Assembly (NCBI RefSeq): GCF_020177375.1
Contig: NZ_JAIWHV010000002.1
Span: forward strand, 310,001 to 374,000
Length of the DNA: 64,000 nt
Origin: Saliphagus infecundisoli
GTDB taxonomy: Archaea; Halobacteriota; Halobacteria; Halobacteriales; Natrialbaceae
Direction of reading: 5' to 3'
Shown: in pieces, positions 18,502 through 64,000 of the stretch
Position numbering within the stretch: position 1 is the first letter of the stretch
How the letters are laid out: the number at the start of each line of letters is the position of its first letter
Position numbers and translations under genes: made by a program
Notes under the pieces: generated by a model
What the model was told of the DNA's origin: nothing
Database searches by the model: none
The model's input: only the letters and a program-made list of their open reading frames with translations

Positions 18502-18525
18502 AGATTGGTGACCAAGGACAGACCT

Positions 18526-20658
18526 ATGTCGCGGAAATCGACAATGGATCGGCGACGATTCCTCGAGGCAGCCGGCGGAACCGCAACCGCACTCGCGCTC
18601 GCGGGTTGTATGGGCGACGACGGTGGCAATGGTAACGGCAACGGGAATGGCAACGGAAACGGCAACGGGAACGGAAACGGCAACGGTAACGGGAACGGCA
18701 ATGGTAACGGCAACGGCAACGGCGAGGCCGACAACGAGACGGACGGCAACGAAACCGAGGGCAACGAGTCCGAAGGGGGCGACGGGGAGGACGTAAGCAA
18801 CGTCCAGAAGGCCCAGAACGCCTGGAACCGCGTCGAGCAGAACCCCAGCCCCGACGCCGAGGACGTCCGCAACGAGGCCTACGTCGCAATGGAGGAGGCC
18901 GTCAGGGACGACATGGTCCTGATGCCGCTGTACCACGGACTGAGCGAGCGGTTCTGGTACGACTGGGTCGACATCGAGCCGATGGGCCCGCTGGGGGGCC
19001 ACCATCAGGTGTACAACACCGCCGAGGTCGATACGAGCAACGAGAACAAAGACGAGAACGTTCTGCGGCTCATCAGCGGGACCGTCTCCACGCTCGATCC
19101 CATCGAGTCGACCGACACCGAATCGGCGTCGAAGATCGGGCAGGTCTACGAGGGGCTGACGACCTACCCCGCGGGCGTCACGGAGATGGAGAACCAGCTT
19201 CTAGAGAGCGTCGAGCTCTCCGACGACGAGACGACCTACACGTTCACGATCACGGAGGGCGTCGAGTTCCACGACGGGACGGAGCTGACCGCCCAGGACT
19301 TCGTCTACTCCTGGCGCCGGCTCGTCGAGTCGCCGAACAGCCAGCGGGCGAGTTTCGCCCTCAGTCCGAGCACCGGAGTCGGCATGGAACACGAGACCAG
19401 CGAGGACGAGGGCACCGGGCCGGCGAACGTCGTCCCCGAGTCCCTCGGTGTCGAGGCCGTCGACGACTACACCATCGAGATGTCCATCGTCGGGCCGAAC
19501 CCGTCGACCATGGACGTCCTCACCTACGACTCGTTCTCGGCCGTCCGGCAGGGCTACGTCGGCGACATTCCGGGCGTCGACGGCGAGGTCGACCAGGAGA
19601 CGTTCGCCACCGAGGACATGAACGGCACCGGGCCCTTCACGTTCGAGGAGTGGGTGCCCGAGGACGTCGTGAGCGTCACCAGCTTCGACAACTACCACGG
19701 CGAGGCGGCCAGCGTCGACGGCGTCGAGTGGCAGGTCATCGAGGACGCCGAGGCCATCTGGACGGTCGCCAACGAACGAAACGTCGACGTCTTCGGCATT
19801 CCGACGCCGTACTACGAGGAGGGGAACATCGAGGCCGAGGAGGACGACCAGGGACGACAGGTCGGAACCTACAGCTCCATCGAGAACGGCGACACGGTCA
19901 ACTACGTCGGCGTCTCGGACATCTCGACGTACTACTTCGCGTTCAACGTCGCCCAGACCGAACTCGCTCCCCGACAGGCGATCGCGTACATCACCAACCA
20001 CGAGTCGATCGTCCAGGAGGTCTTCGCCGGGCGCGGGACCGAGGCGTTCAGCTTCACCCCGCCCGCGCTGTGGCCCGAGGACGTCGTCGCCTACGATCAG
20101 TGGGTCGAGGACTGGCAGTACGGCGCCAACCAAACCGACCGTGAGTCGGCGACCCAGGTCCTAGAGGAGGCCGGCTACACCGAGGACGATCCGTACTCGA
20201 TCACGCTGACGACCTACGAGGACCCGACGTTCCAGGACGCCGCACGCCTCATCCGCGACCAGGCCTCCGGGACAGGCCTTGAGTTCGAGATCGAACAGGC
20301 CCAGTTCTCGACGCTCATCAGCCGCGGCGAGGAGGGGAACCTCCAGATGTACTCGCTGGGCTGGATCTGGAGCTGGACCTCCATCGCGTACGGCATGTTC
20401 GGCTTCGAGCCGGCCAACACCGACACCAGTCGCATGCCCGGCGAGGCCAACGGCTACTACCTCGACTGGCAGGCGGCCGCGGAGGGCGAACTCGAGACCG
20501 GCGGCAACGGCGGTGCCGGAAACGAGACCGGTGGGAACGAGACCGGCGGAAACGAGACGAACGAGACCGGTGGCAACGAAAGCGACGGCATGGACGCCGG
20601 TAACGAGACGAACGAAACCGGCGGCAACGAGACCGGCGGCAACCAAAGCGACGAGTAA
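18526..20658 (+). CDS. dppA: peptide-type ABC transporter substrate-binding lipoprotein (SBP family 5), apparently circularly permuted
   Basis: A 710-residue Tat lipoprotein: MDRRRFLEAAGG signal with lipobox LALAGC (Cys28), then about 16 Gly-Asn repeats (18627-18720) and an acidic sequon-rich linker. Residues about 91-170 (AQNAWNRVEQNP, EDVRNEAYVAMEEAV, MPLYHGLSERFWYDWVD) resemble what is normally the C-terminal end of family-5 binding proteins. Next comes the usual N-terminal beginning (ENVLRLISGTVSTLDPIES), the body (GVEFHDGTELTAQDFVYSWRR, MNGTGPFTFEEW), and the region that normally precedes the C-terminal segment (ANGYYLDWQAA). The protein then ends in a tail with nine N-x-S/T sequons. It is the first gene of an ABC operon and should capture oligopeptides or similar solutes outside the cell. 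Confidence 0.88.
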   Translation: MSRKSTMDRRRFLEAAGGTATALALAGCMGDDGGNGNGNGNGNGNGNGNGNGNGNGNGNGNGNGNGEADNETDGNETEGNESEGGDGEDVSNVQKAQNAWNRVEQNPSPDAEDVRNEAYVAMEEAVRDDMVLMPLYHGLSERFWYDWVDIEPMGPLGGHHQVYNTAEVDTSNENKDENVLRLISGTVSTLDPIESTDTESASKIGQVYEGLTTYPAGVTEMENQLLESVELSDDETTYTFTITEGVEFHDGTELTAQDFVYSWRRLVESPNSQRASFALSPSTGVGMEHETSEDEGTGPANVVPESLGVEAVDDYTIEMSIVGPNPSTMDVLTYDSFSAVRQGYVGDIPGVDGEVDQETFATEDMNGTGPFTFEEWVPEDVVSVTSFDNYHGEAASVDGVEWQVIEDAEAIWTVANERNVDVFGIPTPYYEEGNIEAEEDDQGRQVGTYSSIENGDTVNYVGVSDISTYYFAFNVAQTELAPRQAIAYITNHESIVQEVFAGRGTEAFSFTPPALWPEDVVAYDQWVEDWQYGANQTDRESATQVLEEAGYTEDDPYSITLTTYEDPTFQDAARLIRDQASGTGLEFEIEQAQFSTLISRGEEGNLQMYSLGWIWSWTSIAYGMFGFEPANTDTSRMPGEANGYYLDWQAAAEGELETGGNGGAGNETGGNETGGNETNETGGNESDGMDAGNETNETGGNETGGNQSDE

Positions 20659-20786: not shown

Positions 20787-20831
20787 ATGATGAACACGGC
20801 GACCGTTTTCCAGGCAGGTGGGCCGCTGTGA
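20787..20831 (+). CDS. 14-residue leader mini-frame overlapping the dppB start
   Basis: Starts ATGATG and encodes MMNTATVFQAGGPL; its TGA overlaps the GTG start of dppB (GTGA). The TATA-like aaatata lies at leaderless distance. The simplest reading is translational coupling that delivers ribosomes to a weak GTG start. It may equally be chance, as no ribosome-binding site is seen. Confidence 0.35.
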   Translation: MMNTATVFQAGGPL

Positions 20832-21901
20832 GCCGCTGGCGGTACTTCTTCAAGCGGCTCGTGCTCATGGTACCGGTGCTCTTTCTGGTGATGACGCTCA
20901 TCTTCGTCGCGCTCCGAATGGGTCCGCTGGACCCGGTCGCGGCTATCCTCGGCCCCGAGGGGACCGGCGGGGACGCCCAGGCGATCCGGGAGAGTCTCGG
21001 GCTCGACCAGCCCCTCTGGCAGCAGTACGTCGAGTTCATCATCGGCCTGCTGACGTTCAACTTCGGCCAGTCGTGGGTCATCCAGCCCGGCCGGACCGTC
21101 ACGGAACTCGTCGGGATCTACGGCCCGCGGACGCTGTGGCTCGGCTTCTGGTCGATCCTCCTCCCGCTTTTCGTCGGGATCCCGCTTGGCTTCTACGCCG
21201 GGCTCAATCCCAACAGCTGGGGTGACTACGTCGCTTCGTTCGGCGGGATCGTCTGGCTCGCGATGCCGAACTTCTGGCTCGCGATCATGCTCCTCGCCGT
21301 CCTTCGCCAGACCGCCGGCGGCGCCGGCCCGCTGGGCTTCGACTGGTACACGTTCGGGCCGAACGTCGAGAGCCTCATCGGCACGCCGCCGCTTGATTTC
21401 CTGGGCACTACCTGGGGTTCGCTGGGGCCGCTCCCGATCCCCACCGGGTTCGACCCCGATCTCGGCGAGCTGCTGGTCGCGATCAAGGTGATCCTCCCGC
21501 CGGCGCTCGTCCTCGGATCGGCCTCGATGGCCGCGGAGCTCCGGATCGGCCGGACCGCCTTCCTCGAGACGATCAACTCGAACTACGTCGAGACCGCACG
21601 GGCCAAGGGGCTGTCGGGGCGGGTCATCGTCTGGAAACACGTCTTCCGGAACGCCCTGATCCCGCTGGTGCCGATCATCACGAACGAGGCGATCCTGCTC
21701 ATCGGCGGCTCGGTCATCGTTGAAACCATCTTCGGGATCAACGGGCTCGGGGCGCTGTTCTTCAACGCGGCCGTCCAGGCCGACCTTCCGCTCGCCGGAG
21801 CGCTGATCTTCATTTTCACGATCATCACCATCGGGCTCAACATCGTCCAGGACCTGCTGTACACGATCCTTGACCCGCGCGTGGGGTACGACCAACAATG
21901 A
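20828..21901 (+). CDS. dppB: ABC transporter permease, DppB/OppB type
   Basis: A 357-residue inner permease with six predicted membrane helices: TM1 at MVPVLFLVMTLIFVAL near residue 14, the others between residues 100 and 345. The first cytoplasmic region has the DppB signature (AIRESLGLDQPLWQQYVEF). The ATPase-contacting EAA loop is near residue 265 (ETARAKGLSGRVIVWKHVFRNAL). The GTG start at 20828 is supported by the family N-terminus MSRWRYFFKRLVLM. The ATG of dppC overlaps its stop (ATGA), so the operon is translationally coupled. Confidence 0.93.
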   Translation: MSRWRYFFKRLVLMVPVLFLVMTLIFVALRMGPLDPVAAILGPEGTGGDAQAIRESLGLDQPLWQQYVEFIIGLLTFNFGQSWVIQPGRTVTELVGIYGPRTLWLGFWSILLPLFVGIPLGFYAGLNPNSWGDYVASFGGIVWLAMPNFWLAIMLLAVLRQTAGGAGPLGFDWYTFGPNVESLIGTPPLDFLGTTWGSLGPLPIPTGFDPDLGELLVAIKVILPPALVLGSASMAAELRIGRTAFLETINSNYVETARAKGLSGRVIVWKHVFRNALIPLVPIITNEAILLIGGSVIVETIFGINGLGALFFNAAVQADLPLAGALIFIFTIITIGLNIVQDLLYTILDPRVGYDQQ

Positions 21902-23616
21902 GTTACGACTACGACGACGACCGAACGCTTCGCGAACGAATCGAGGCGAACCCGCGGCCGGCACTCGTCTGGCTCGCCGGGCTCGCCGTCTTGCTCGCGC
22001 TCGAGCTCGGGCGGGTCGCGCGCGCGATCGTCTACATCGGCTCCCTGACCCGCGGGTTTCTCGGCGGCGCCGCCGGCGTTCCCGGCACGGTCGCCGACAA
22101 CGTCGCGGGCTCGCTCGGCGGCGCCGCTGGCATCGTCGGGGCCGCGATCACGGCGCTCCTCTTGCTTGCCGTCGCCGCCGTCCTGATCAAGTGGCTGTTC
22201 GTCCCCGTCTCGCTGGTCAACCGGCTCGGGCTCGACACCGGCGAGGGCAGGGACGAGATCATCGAGCGGGGGCTGATCACGGTCGCCCTCGCCGTCGTCG
22301 CGGCGCTCGTGGTCTTCACGCCCGTCGGCGCCGCCCTCGAGGCCGCGATCGGCTGGCTTACCGACGCCCTCGAGTCCGCGGGGACGATCCAGACGCTGAC
22401 CCAGCGGGACACGATCCCGAACCAGGGGTATCGAACGCCGGGGGGCGGCTGGGAGGGAACGTTCCTCGGGCTCTCGCCGGCGGTGGCGTGGGCGATCCGC
22501 GTGTTCGTCATCTACGCCTACTCGTTCGTCGTCGCGGCCTGGCTCTGGAAGGGGTACGAGGTCTTCCGGGAGCACTACCGGGAGGCCGACTGGACGCCGC
22601 GAGACGACAGCATCAACCGGTTTCGGACCCACTACTGGGGGATCTTCGGGCTGGCGATGGTGTTCGCGTTCGTCGTGATGGCGATCTTTGCGCCCTCGCT
22701 GGGCCCGGTTACGGCGGAGGCGAACCTCTACTCGCCGTACGAATACGAGTTCCAGTATCTGGAGGGCGGCGAACTCCAGACGGTGACCCAGGGTGACGCG
22801 AACCTCGCGAGTCGCTCCCAGGGCGGCTCGGACAACGTCGGTCCCCTGAGCTACGACCAATACGACCGCTGGCATCCGGCCGGCACCAACCAGGACGGGA
22901 AGGACCTCTTTACCTTCCTGATGTACGGTGCCAGGACGTCGCTGGTGATCGGGCTCACGTCGATCGGACTGGCGACCGCGATCGCGTCCGCGCTTTCGAT
23001 GATCACGGCCTACTACAAGGGACTGGTCGACGTGCTGACTGTCGTCGCGAGCGACACGATCATCTCGATCCCCGCGTTCCTATTGATCCTATTGTTGAAC
23101 GTGCTGTTCGCGGAGGCGGATCACCCGATCATGGACATCTACAACGGCGGGTTCCTGCTCGCCCTGATCCTCGCAGGGGTGTACTGGCCGGGGCTGTGGC
23201 GGTCGATACGCGGGCCCTCCCTGCAAGTCGCCTCCGAGGAGTGGGTCGACGCGGCCAAGAGCTACGGCCAGAGCCCCGGAATGACGATGCGCAAACACAT
23301 GAGTCCGTACATCCTGACATACATCATGATCTACGCCTCGTTGATGCTCGGTGCGGTCATCATCGTGACCGCCGCCCTCTCCTTCCTCGGGCTGGGGATC
23401 AGCCCCCCGACCCCCGAGTGGGGACGAGCGGTCAGTGAGGGGCGGCAGTACATCTCGGGGTCGTCGTGGCACATCTCGACGATCCCCGGCATCATGATCG
23501 TCTTCGTCGTCACCGGCTTCAACGCCCTGGGTGATGGCATCCGCGACGCGATCGACCCCGAGAGCGAGGCCGGAGACGCCAGTGCCGACGCGGCCGCCAC
23601 GGGGGGTGGTGCCTGA
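21898..23616 (+). CDS. dppC: ABC transporter permease, DppC/OppC type, with long N-terminal extension
   Basis: A 572-residue permease, roughly twice the normal length of DppC (about 300). The C-terminal half is canonical: HPAGTNQDGKDLFTFLMYGARTSL near residue 320, then five helices, the EAA loop (EWVDAAKSYGQSPGMTMRKHMSPY) near residue 445 and the DPRL-equivalent end GDGIRDAIDPE. The N-terminal 230 residues add about four or five hydrophobic segments with no family that I recognise. Its stop overlaps the next start (TGATG). Confidence 0.9.
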   Translation: MSYDYDDDRTLRERIEANPRPALVWLAGLAVLLALELGRVARAIVYIGSLTRGFLGGAAGVPGTVADNVAGSLGGAAGIVGAAITALLLLAVAAVLIKWLFVPVSLVNRLGLDTGEGRDEIIERGLITVALAVVAALVVFTPVGAALEAAIGWLTDALESAGTIQTLTQRDTIPNQGYRTPGGGWEGTFLGLSPAVAWAIRVFVIYAYSFVVAAWLWKGYEVFREHYREADWTPRDDSINRFRTHYWGIFGLAMVFAFVVMAIFAPSLGPVTAEANLYSPYEYEFQYLEGGELQTVTQGDANLASRSQGGSDNVGPLSYDQYDRWHPAGTNQDGKDLFTFLMYGARTSLVIGLTSIGLATAIASALSMITAYYKGLVDVLTVVASDTIISIPAFLLILLLNVLFAEADHPIMDIYNGGFLLALILAGVYWPGLWRSIRGPSLQVASEEWVDAAKSYGQSPGMTMRKHMSPYILTYIMIYASLMLGAVIIVTAALSFLGLGISPPTPEWGRAVSEGRQYISGSSWHISTIPGIMIVFVVTGFNALGDGIRDAIDPESEAGDASADAAATGGGA

Positions 23617-24968
23617 TGGCCGTCGAGCAGACCGCCGAGCGGACGGGAACCCGCGAAGAGCCGATCGTCACCGTCCGAAACCTCCAGACCGCCTTCTTCA
23701 CCGACAAGGAGGTGATCCGGGCGGTCGACGGCGTGAACTTCGAGATCGTTCCCGGCGAGACCGTCGGCATCGTCGGCGAGTCGGGCTCCGGAAAGAGCGT
23801 CACGGCCCGCTCGATCATGGGGTTAGTCGACTCGCCGGGCCGGATCCTCGAGGGAAGCAGCGTTCGCTTCCACCACACCGACACCGTCCGGGAGTTCGCC
23901 GACCGGTTCCCCGGACGGACCGTCGACCTCGCGGCCGTCGCCGAGGGACGCGACCCGGAAGCGTTATTCGCCCACGACGCCGTCGGCGCGACGCCCTCCG
24001 CGTTCGGCTACGACGACGCGAGCGAGGCGTCCGTCGCGGACTTCGTCGCCGCCGGCTACGGCGAGGCCCTCGGGATCGACCCCGAGGACTGCGTGTTCAT
24101 CACGGAGGGGACGGTCGACGACCCCCTGGACGGGTTCGTCGAGATCACCCGCCTCTCGGGGGAGTCCCAGCGCGCAATGCGCGGCGGCCGGATCGCAATG
24201 GTGTTCCAGGATCCCCTGACGAGTCTCAACCCGGTTTACACCGTCGGCAACCAGATCGAGGAGGCTCTCGAACTCCACCGGGACCTCTCGGGCCGGGAGG
24301 CGACCCGCGAGGCCATCGACCTGCTCGAGGCCGTCGGGATCCCTGACGCCCGCCGGCGGGTCAACGAGTACCCCCACCAGTTCTCGGGCGGGATGCGCCA
24401 GCGGGCCGTGATCGCGATGGCCCTCGCTTGCGATCCCGAGGTCCTGATCTGTGACGAGCCGACGACCGCCCTCGACGTGACGATCCAGGCCCAGATCCTC
24501 GAACTGCTGGCCGACCTCCAGACCGACCGCGACCTCGGAATCATGTTCATCACCCACGACATGGGCGTCATCGCCGACGTCTCCGACCGCGTCAACGTCA
24601 TGTACGCCGGCGAGGTCGTCGAATCCGCCGCCGTCGAACCGCTCTTTGCCCAGCCGCGCCACCCCTACACGCGCGGGCTCCTCGAGTCGATCCCGGGCCG
24701 CCAGGAGGGCGGCCGGCTCCAGACCATCGAGGGGACGGTGCCGACGCCCAACGAGCCGGCGACCTACTGTCGCTTCGCGCCACGCTGTCCCGAACGCTTC
24801 GAGCCCTGCGATGAGGTCCACCCGGTCTCGGTGCCGGTCAACGACGAGGACGGGGACCACACCGCCGCCTGCCTGCTCTACCCCGAGGACGAGCCGCGCG
24901 AGGCGGCGGTTTCGAGCCACGAGGCCCGCGACGATTCGGTCCGCGAACAAGGGGGTGAGCGGCGATGA
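23616..24968 (+). CDS. dppD: ABC transporter ATP-binding protein, DppD/OppD type
   Basis: A 450-residue ATPase. Walker A is GESGSGKS near residue 52, the Q-loop is in [12 protein letters not shown] near 195, the signature is [15 protein letters not shown] near 257, Walker B is [13 protein letters not shown] near 277 and the switch histidine is in FITHDMG near 312. The C-terminal oligo_HPY region has [15 protein letters not shown]. About 70-80 extra residues (about 80-180) lie between Walker A and the Q-loop, replacing the short connector of bacterial OppD. The 3' end overlaps the dppF ATG. Confidence 0.93.
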
Positions 24969-26302
24969 GCCAGGAACCCGTCGAGACGACGTTCACCGAG
25001 CCCGGCGCGGACGAGGACGTGATGGTCGAGGTCCGGGACCTCCGGACCTACTACGGCGGCGACAGCATGTTCGGTGGACCGCCGGTGAAGGCCGTCGACG
25101 GCGTCAGCTTCGACATCAAGCGCGGGGAGACCCTCGGACTGGTCGGTGAGTCGGGCTGTGGGAAGACGACGCTCGGGCGGACGCTCGTCCAGCTCGAGTC
25201 GGCGACCGGCGGCGAGGTGTTGTTCGACGGGACCGACGTCACGGAGCTGTCGGGCAAGCAGCTCAAACAGTGGCGCCGGAACAGCCAGATCGTCTTCCAG
25301 GACCCCGACTCGAGTCTCAACGACCGGATGACCGTCGGCGAGATCGTCCGGGAACCCCTCGACGTCCACGACGTCGGGACGCCCCGCGAGCGCCGCCAGC
25401 AGGTCCGGGAACTGCTCGACACCGTCGGGCTCCAGCGCGAACACTACTACCGCTACCCCCACCAGTTCTCCGGGGGGCAACGCCAGCGCATCGGCATCGC
25501 CCGGACGCTCACCTTAGAACCCGACTTCATCGTGCTCGATGAACCCGTAAGCGCCCTCGACGTGAGCGTCCAGGCGGAGGTCATCAACCTCCTGGAGGAC
25601 CTCCAGGAGGAGTTCGGCCTCACCTACCTCTTCATCGCCCACGACCTCTCGGTCGTGCGCCACATCTGCGACCGGGTCGCGGTGATGTACCTGGGCAATA
25701 TTATGGAGTTGGGCCCGACCGAGGAGCTGTTCGCCGACCCCGCGAACCCCTACACCCACTCGCTGCTGTCAGCGATCCCCGAACCGGATCCCACGAGCGA
25801 CAGCGACCGGATCACGCTGTACGGGACGCCGCCGAACCCCCGCCATCCCCCCTCTGGCTGTCCCTTCAGCACCCGGTGTCCCGTCCGGATCCGTCCCGAC
25901 GAGTTCGCCCATCTCGACGACGAACTCTGGACGGCGATCAACACGCTCCGGGAGGTGCTCCGCGAGCGCGAACGGGCCGACCGCACGACCACCGACCGGA
26001 TCCGCGAGTTGCTCGGCCGCGAGAGCCGCTTCGGGACGATCGACGGGATCTACGAGGAGGTGTTCGGGGACGTCACGGTCCCGCCGGAGGTCGAGGAGCC
26101 CCTGGACGAGGCCGCCGACCACGTCCGGGCGGGTGACGAGGCGAGCGCCCTCGAGGTCCTCTTCGAGGCGTTCGGGGCCGTCTGTGAGGCCGAGGCGCCC
26201 GACTACTACACGGTCGGCGACACCGATCGAGAGAGCTTCTGTCACCGCCACGGCGACGAGTATCGCTCGCCCGCCGAGGTTTTAGACGAGCGCCACGGCT
26301 GA
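24965..26302 (+). CDS. dppF: ABC transporter ATP-binding protein, DppF/OppF type
   Basis: A 445-residue ATPase paired with the preceding one. Walker [10 protein letters not shown] is near residue 60, the Q-loop in [13 protein letters not shown] near 112, signature [15 protein letters not shown] near 166, Walker [14 protein letters not shown] near 186 and switch region FIAHDLS near 223. The oligo_HPY domain begins at [10 protein letters not shown] (near 296) and finishes only about 100 residues later ([10 protein letters not shown]...[10 protein letters not shown]). The intervening helical, charged insert is unusual compared with bacterial OppF. Last gene of the dpp operon. Confidence 0.93.
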
Positions 26303-62816: not shown

Positions 62817-64000
62817 ATGCCGCGACGATTTCACGATCAACGGGACGACGAAACGGTTATCAACCGCCGACAGTGGCTCGCTGCTCTCGGCGTCGGCGGG
62901 GTCGGCGGTCTCGCCGGCTGTATGGGCGGCGACGGTGGTAACGGAAACGGCAATGGGAACGGAAACGGCAATGGGAACGGAAACGGGAACGGAGACTCGA
63001 ACGAGAGCACCGAGGAGACGGAGACCGGGAACGAAACGAACGGGACCAACGAGAGCGACGGCGGAAACGAGACCAACGAGAGCGATGGCGGGTCGGGCGA
63101 GCCCACGATGTCGGAGTCCTACGACACCGTCACCTCCGCGTCGTTCGAGACCCTCAACCCGATCTACAACACAGAGGACGGCGCGGGGGACGCGATCGGT
63201 TACGCCCTGGATATGGGCTACACCTTCGACGGGAACAGCGAGTACTTCCCTCTGCTGTACGACATGTCCACCGAGGACGGCTCCGTCTGGACGTTCACCG
63301 TCCGCGAGGGCCTCGAGTTCAGCGATCCCTACGGCGAGGTGACCGCCTCGACGTTCGTCTATCTCATCCAGGAGGTCCACCAGAGCGAGTGGGCGGCGAC
63401 CGCGGCGGCGACCTCCTGGGCCGGCGTCGAGGTCGAGGAGACCGGCGACTACGAGTTCCAGGCGACGCTTCCCGAGCCGAGCCTGCTCTGGCCCGAGAGC
63501 TACGACCCGCTGCTGTACCCCATCCCCCAGGACCTCCTTTCGCCCTACGTCGAGGAGGAGGACGCCGAAGGCCTCCAACAGGACGAGGAGCTCCTCGAAC
63601 TCCAGTTCACCGGTAACCTCGGCGCGTACGTCCTAGACGAGTGGAACCGCGGCGCCGGGACGAGCTACAGTCGCAACGAGAACTACTACATCCAGAACAT
63701 CGAGGAGGGTCCCGACAGCTTCAGCGACGCGCCGTACTTCGAGAGCGCCACGATCAGCGTCGTCGAGGAACAGGCCTCCCGCCTCGGTGCCCTGGAGACC
63801 GGGGAGGCCGACTCCGCCGGGATCCCACCGGAACGCGTCGAGGAGTTCCGGAACCTGGATGGAGTCCAGGTCAACGAGATCCCACAGCCGTACAACACGA
63901 TCCTCTCGGTCAACATGCGCGACAACGGCTGGAACGCCGGTCCCGGGAACCTCTTTCGGCACATCCCGTTCCGGCAGGCGCTCAACGTCGCCGTCAGCAA
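62817..64000 (+). CDS. second peptide-type ABC substrate-binding lipoprotein (3' part beyond right edge)
   Basis: Family 5 solute-binding protein with a Tat lipoprotein signal (NRRQWLAALGVGGVGGLAGC, lipobox Cys at residue 35), a Gly-Asn linker (62937-62993) and an acidic linker with six N-x-S/T sequons. The body is the usual order: SYDTVTSASFETLNPIYNTEDG, FTVREGLEFSDPYGEVTASTFVYLIQE and LQFTGNLGAYVLDEWNRGAGTSYSRNENYY. Unlike the dppA protein at 18526, the C-terminal-type segment is not moved to the front. The window ends inside the gene. Likely the start of another peptide-transport operon. Confidence 0.9.
   Translation, partial: MPRRFHDQRDDETVINRRQWLAALGVGGVGGLAGCMGGDGGNGNGNGNGNGNGNGNGNGDSNESTEETETGNETNGTNESDGGNETNESDGGSGEPTMSESYDTVTSASFETLNPIYNTEDGAGDAIGYALDMGYTFDGNSEYFPLLYDMSTEDGSVWTFTVREGLEFSDPYGEVTASTFVYLIQEVHQSEWAATAAATSWAGVEVEETGDYEFQATLPEPSLLWPESYDPLLYPIPQDLLSPYVEEEDAEGLQQDEELLELQFTGNLGAYVLDEWNRGAGTSYSRNENYYIQNIEEGPDSFSDAPYFESATISVVEEQASRLGALETGEADSAGIPPERVEEFRNLDGVQVNEIPQPYNTILSVNMRDNGWNAGPGNLFRHIPFRQALNVAVS

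Follow-up and report, generated by a model that had tools for sequence, protein, structure and literature searches.

A natural circular permutation in a DppA/OppA-like binding lipoprotein of a haloarchaeal ABC importer operon, as judged from sequence

Natural circular permutations are usually old and appear as two distant groups of proteins. Among substrate-binding proteins, OpuAC and ProX, small cluster F-type proteins that do not belong to family 5, are permuted relative to each other, and we know of no reversal to the original order for the permuted DNA methyltransferases and saposins/swaposins. The latter two are textbook natural circular permutations by duplication (PMC3320104) in folds other than that of the protein described here, and the glycine betaine-binding family, which a search for permuted proteins reported (PMC2395249), has in common with it that circular permutation occurred among substrate-binding proteins. 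Nearer to the present case is a sugar-binding lipoprotein of Treponema pallidum, Tp0684 (MglB-2), whose chain is circularly permuted and for which the authors suggest a possible link between topology and membrane tethering (PMC4990184). Tp0684 and the protein described here are both natural circular permutations of an ABC binding lipoprotein. Tp0684, however, is a cluster B sugar binder in which N-lobe strands moved to the C terminus and the permuted part is poorly similar, whereas the family described here belongs to cluster C, carries a C-terminal segment at the N terminus at about 60% retained identity, and includes both orders within one close family. A literature search, thin in subscription journals, returned no report of permutation in family 5 binding proteins or in those of haloarchaea.

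The reference proteins for cluster C (PF00496) are DppA and OppA of Escherichia coli; a match to PF00496 and sequence searches of the PDB (DppA 1DPP/1DPE and 8Z1Z) place the protein analyzed here in their family. It is encoded in a window, by which we mean the whole 64,000-nucleotide stretch of Saliphagus infecundisoli DNA that was analyzed, and its operon is made up like that of the DppABCDF importer. Unlike DppA and OppA, it has the C-terminal segment at the N terminus, is predicted to be lipid anchored, and has Thr and Ser in place of the clamp residues. We consider it very probable that it is a naturally circularly permuted, cluster C DppA/OppA-like lipoprotein of an ABC importer, for which the fold, a shift of the lipid tether to lobe 2, and an origin by duplication are inferred.

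Order of segments in the window protein

The gene for the permuted family 5 solute-binding lipoprotein was recognized from its open reading frame, PF00496, and its order relative to homologues, and runs on the forward strand from an ATG at 18526 to 20658; the list of open reading frames gives an alternative TTG start at 18505, from which the protein counts 717 residues and which is used for numbering below. PF00496 matched with an E value of 1.3e-64 and 219 bits (cut-off 32.4) over residues 228 to 630 (profile positions 2 to 356 of 368), so that the displaced segment is invisible to Pfam. The N terminus carries a Tat-type signal (MDRRRFLEAAGG) followed by the lipobox LAGC (18544 to 18609), in which the cysteine is residue 35. 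The Pfam TAT_signal match was weak (13.9 bits, under the cut-off), but the twin arginine and the lipobox are present, and the spacing between them fits the haloarchaeal Tat lipoprotein rule of 12 to 21 residues between the second arginine and the cysteine (PMC2945643). Haloarchaeal lipoproteins are mostly exported by Tat and carry their lipid anchor at the N terminus (PMC2945643). We conclude that the protein is by these sequence features a haloarchaeal Tat lipoprotein, with lipidation predicted.

Between the anchor cysteine and the first domain segment lies a Gly-Asn repeat linker of 66 residues with three sequons (18610 to 18807). The earlier note, made by a model from the sequence alone, had proposed that the region after this linker resembles the usual C terminus of family 5 proteins, at about residues 91 to 170 counted from the ATG, and that the usual N terminus starts only behind it. 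A segment profile was built from 43 normal-order homologues only, with 200 shuffles as a control. The profile matched residues 102 to 172 at 110 bits, the best of the shuffles reaching 11.3, and the segment is 61 to 68% identical over about 70 residues to the C termini of close normal-order homologues such as L094, L095, and L096. In the numbering from the TTG, the displaced segment spans the 74 residues 102 to 175 (18808 to 19029), and its usual place is the C terminus of the protein. A junction of nine residues, DTSNENKDE (19030 to 19056), leads from the old C terminus to the old N terminus, and the body of the fold follows as residues 185 to 660 (19057 to 20484), from VLRLISGTVSTLDPIES through GYYLDWQAAAE, the point at which an unpermuted chain would run on into the displaced segment. 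Both halves of the proposal are borne out, as is the placement of the body end immediately before the displaced segment's usual site, which agrees with the homologues.

In the standard chain the C-terminal segment comes last, and in the window protein nothing of it follows the body. The earlier note had named, as evidence against its reading, a complete normal C-terminal segment at another place in the protein; the profile search found none, its only other match scoring -3.3 bits. What follows the body is, as the earlier note had described, a sequon-rich tail; it has 57 residues with nine N-x-S/T sites (20485 to 20655), and among the permuted homologues this tail is seen only in the window protein, and its repeat composition resembles that of the N-terminal Gly-Asn linker. 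The second binding protein in the window (at 62817) has the ordinary order. We conclude that, on its sequence matches, the window protein is a member of family 5 and cluster C by descent and a variant in topology.

Homologues in both orders

Homologues were searched in 60 relatives and then in 392 genomes of the order, and when the body and the C segment were compared by blastp with open reading frames, nearly all homologues fell into one of two arrangements. In the first, the whole query matched in one colinear stretch, the best such homologues being 52 to 62% identical. In the second, query residues 78 to 557 matched first and residues 1 to 77 directly downstream. The shared pieces are about 50 to 70% identical between the two orders and are joined oppositely, and the closest normal-order homologues, at 59 to 60% identity in the body, are as close as the permuted ones. 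Moreover, the profiles of the permuted and normal groups align across the whole body with 54% identity (E value, 4e-200).

A search with three segment HMMs, two for the body (s1 and s2) and one for the displaced segment (s3), returned 105 distinct proteins with all three. All 105 are cyclic rotations of the same segments: 54 are normal (s1-s2-s3), 46 are of the window type (s3-s1-s2), five are s2-s3-s1, and a noncyclic order occurred in none. Many genera are represented among the 45 haloarchaeal genomes that encode the 46 window-type proteins, which answers two points raised by the earlier note, whether the order is unique or shared by a clade and whether the gene is correctly assembled. Homologues thus carry the same two pieces in opposite order ahead of the same downstream operon, as expected from the circular permutation that had been proposed.

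The ends of the pieces are equally regular. In normal-order proteins the body runs to GYYLDW, a link of about 6 to 12 residues follows, the closing segment begins with KAQ.AWE, and the stop comes a few residues past YN..L. Window-type proteins have the signal and linker, after which the chain begins a few residues ahead of KAQ.AWE; the junction between old C and old N terminus measures 3 to 14 amino acids in permuted members, and those other than the window protein finish at most about 11 residues past the body. The old termini are therefore joined, and the new ones fall within the short stretch that separates YYLDW from KAQ in normal-order homologues, which we take to be a loop in three dimensions. 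We conclude from these comparisons that the standard fold's last 74 or so residues come ahead of its remainder and that this order is common to a large clade of haloarchaeal orthologues.

Three observations go beyond the earlier note: the sharing of the order by a large clade, a second permutation with another breakpoint, and normal-order genes inside the permuted clade. The second permutation is the s2-s3-s1 type, found in the window protein's own family in five proteins (L156, L157, L158, L159, and L172, from genomes G089, G093, G155, G096, and G054, respectively); it is cut about 130 body residues earlier than the window type, and its members form one clade (SH-aLRT, 99). One window-type protein (L088:764-3688, genome G227) has a kinase-like domain fused to its N terminus (PF00069; E value, 2e-5, under its cut-off) and is encoded away from any dpp operon; it is possibly a receptor.

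A third arrangement belongs to a more distant family. A PF00496 search of the genome that contains the window returned a protein on contig C33 in which profile positions 287 to 363 lie upstream of positions 2 to 286 in one open reading frame, and Pfam and NCBIfam scans agree, residues 2 to 135 (of 590 scanned) matching positions 378 to 511 of the SapA model. The gene for such a differently permuted family 5 binding lipoprotein (L173:4885-6786; C33 pair at G000:C33:180884-183666) extends into the start of a gene for a PAP2 phosphatase (L173:6783-7667). Matches to the C33-type binding protein were found in 211 of 293 haloarchaeal genomes, including Natronorubrum bangense and Haloferax gibbonsii, and in the loci checked (L134 to L145, N. 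bangense, and Hfx. gibbonsii) the binding protein is paired with PAP2, often in tandem copies. No ABC permease was seen beside the pair at the loci where annotation was read, and the pair may be a two-gene module rather than an importer. The named examples that were looked at are annotated just as "ABC transporter substrate-binding protein." That this family was permuted independently is suggested by its different cut and its distant relation.

History of the permutation

A gene tree was computed on sequences restored to a common order. The window-type genes and four normal-order genes form one clade (SH-aLRT, 97 to 99; 100/98 in the more careful tree), with the normal-order genes L101 and L104 near its base at weak support. 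The normal-order genes L094 (genome G085) and L095 (genome G304) lie deep inside the permuted clade, and in a tree of the adjacent permeases (DppB plus DppC) L094, L095, and L101 again fall inside the clade of permuted operons. Approximately unbiased (AU) tests, in which the groups were chosen after the tree was seen and the p values are guides only, rejected a clade of all permuted genes alone (p = 0.0035), the permuted clade with L094 but without L095 (p = 0.019), and the permuted clade with L095 but without L094 (p = 0.039); the permuted clade with both was not rejected (p = 0.456). The nested position of L094 and L095 requires either reversion or repeated gain, and the simplest account of the sequences would be one gain and two reversions, with at least three parallel gains at the same cut also possible.

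Parallel gains are the alternative to be taken most seriously, and we regard them as a real possibility that nevertheless falls short of being probable. On this account the window-type permutation arose several times at the same cut, and the nested genes of G085 and G304 are unpermuted survivors rather than reversions. A single loop may be the sole tolerated cut, at least one other independent permutation is present in the family, and the basal order of the permuted clade is weakly supported (70/57), all of which would suit repeated gain. Against this, the permutation would have had to arise at least three to four times at identical breakpoints, compared with one gain and two losses; in addition, the clade that unites the permuted genes with L094 and L095 survived the AU test, and the permease tree places both genes inside as well. 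Recombination with a normal-order donor was also considered for L094 and L095, which show no clear trace of such a donor: in window-by-window identity comparisons, body and C segment are nearest to permuted relatives nearly throughout, except in short stretches, such as columns 275 to 425 of L094, where a normal-order sequence equals or exceeds them in closeness. A tree of the C segment alone has 74 columns, too few for resolution.

The permuted order probably originated in an in-frame partial tandem duplication, after which the first body was lost and the gene was truncated past the second, with the signal and linker unchanged. Comparable events with other cuts took place in other parts of the family, and within the permuted clade the normal order is seen again in two lineages. 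Neither duplicated C segments within genes (C-body-C or another intermediate) nor permutation relics in the 900-bp flanks were found. The missing C-body-C intermediate is what speaks for a different route, in which the gene split in two and the parts fused again in the other order, but separate genes for the C segment or the body are likewise absent among the 105 proteins and in the flanks, and we consider this route unlikely. Two further readings have next to no probability: an unrelated N-terminal domain that resembles a C terminus in a protein that lost its own, for which the silence of Pfam and poor structure models might be cited, is refuted at the sequence level by the identity to normal-order orthologues and the score of the normal-only profile given above; and an assembly or annotation artefact, conceivable because Gly-Asn repeats can confuse assembly, is ruled out by independent genomes, several with the order on single-contig chromosomes (G005, G058, G145, and G385).

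Operon, ligand, and lipid tether

Directly downstream of the window protein, on the same strand, are two permease and two ATPase genes of one operon: a DppB-type permease (20828 to 21901), read as an open reading frame conserved downstream of both orders, a DppC-type permease (21898 to 23616), a DppD-type ATPase (23616 to 24968), and a DppF-type ATPase (24965 to 26302). This gene order, from the binding protein through DppB, DppC, DppD, and DppF, accompanies binding proteins of either kind, and the four genes lie directly downstream in most relatives as they do in the window. For pairs of permuted genes, dN/dS is 0.03 to 0.20 in the displaced segment and 0.10 to 0.29 in the body. The conserved operon and the low dN/dS indicate that the permuted proteins are maintained. 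We conclude that the permuted order is kept by purifying selection and is linked to an intact permease/ATPase operon. From the gene content, the permuted proteins are most likely the binding subunits of ABC importers, a function that the permutation probably left unchanged.

E. coli DppA clamps the ends of dipeptides through R383 and D436 in precursor numbering (PMC12136057). These residues (R355 and D408 of the mature protein) align to Thr and Ser in the normal-order profile, so that the label of a dipeptide-binding protein is not justified, and the aligned residues suggest that the ligand is probably something other than an ordinary dipeptide. At the site of the DppA aspartate, permuted members carry GW.WSW or a sequence close to it. 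In the window protein, GWIWSW (20359 to 20376) takes the place of the GW..D site of DppA (D436), as it does in normal and permuted members of the subclade.

The position of the cut in the fold was read from a related protein. Cluster C proteins build lobe 1 from both ends of the chain and lobe 2 from the part between, with about 40 residues at the C-terminal end belonging to lobe 1; in E. coli YejA, lobe 1 comprises residues 1 to 286 and 540 to 579 and lobe 2 residues 287 to 539 (PMC10924461). By these boundaries, a chain opened about 75 residues ahead of its C terminus is cut within lobe 2; the profile-to-PDB alignment to DppA ends about 25 to 30 positions short of the cut, so its position in the fold is an extrapolation. 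Mapped in the same way, the cuts of the second and third types would likewise lie in lobe 2. AlphaFold2 gave a mean pLDDT of 45.7 and a pTM of 0.33 for the permuted form from an alignment with only four outside homologues, and the normal-order control, with the same thin alignment, was no better (mean pLDDT, 51); models of this quality carry no weight for or against the fold. The permuted chain would take the usual two-lobe clamshell, with both old termini in lobe 1, where a linker of 3 to 14 residues could bridge them. With the cut in a loop of lobe 2, the N-terminal lipid tether would enter lobe 2 instead of lobe 1, and the protein would still capture its ligand and hand it to the permease as before.

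Because haloarchaeal lipoproteins are mostly anchored at the N terminus, each of the permutations would place the tether on lobe 2, where the normal order has it on lobe 1. We tentatively suggest, as a doubtful extension, that the haloarchaeal family 5 fold was re-cut repeatedly, by at least three independent permutations in lobe 2 loops together with reversions, and that these were favoured for the tether shift. If so, the shift would alter the way in which the permease meets the tethered clamshell. Standard domain models overlook the displaced piece. In the haloarchaea, both orders coexist at 50 to 60% identity in one orthologous operon family; the same family adds a second rotation, a sister family a third, and normal-order genes are nested in the permuted clade. 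Circular permutation thereby becomes directly testable in its steps and its reversibility, and natural pairs of permuted and normal proteins allow the position of the lipid tether in a binding protein to be tested.
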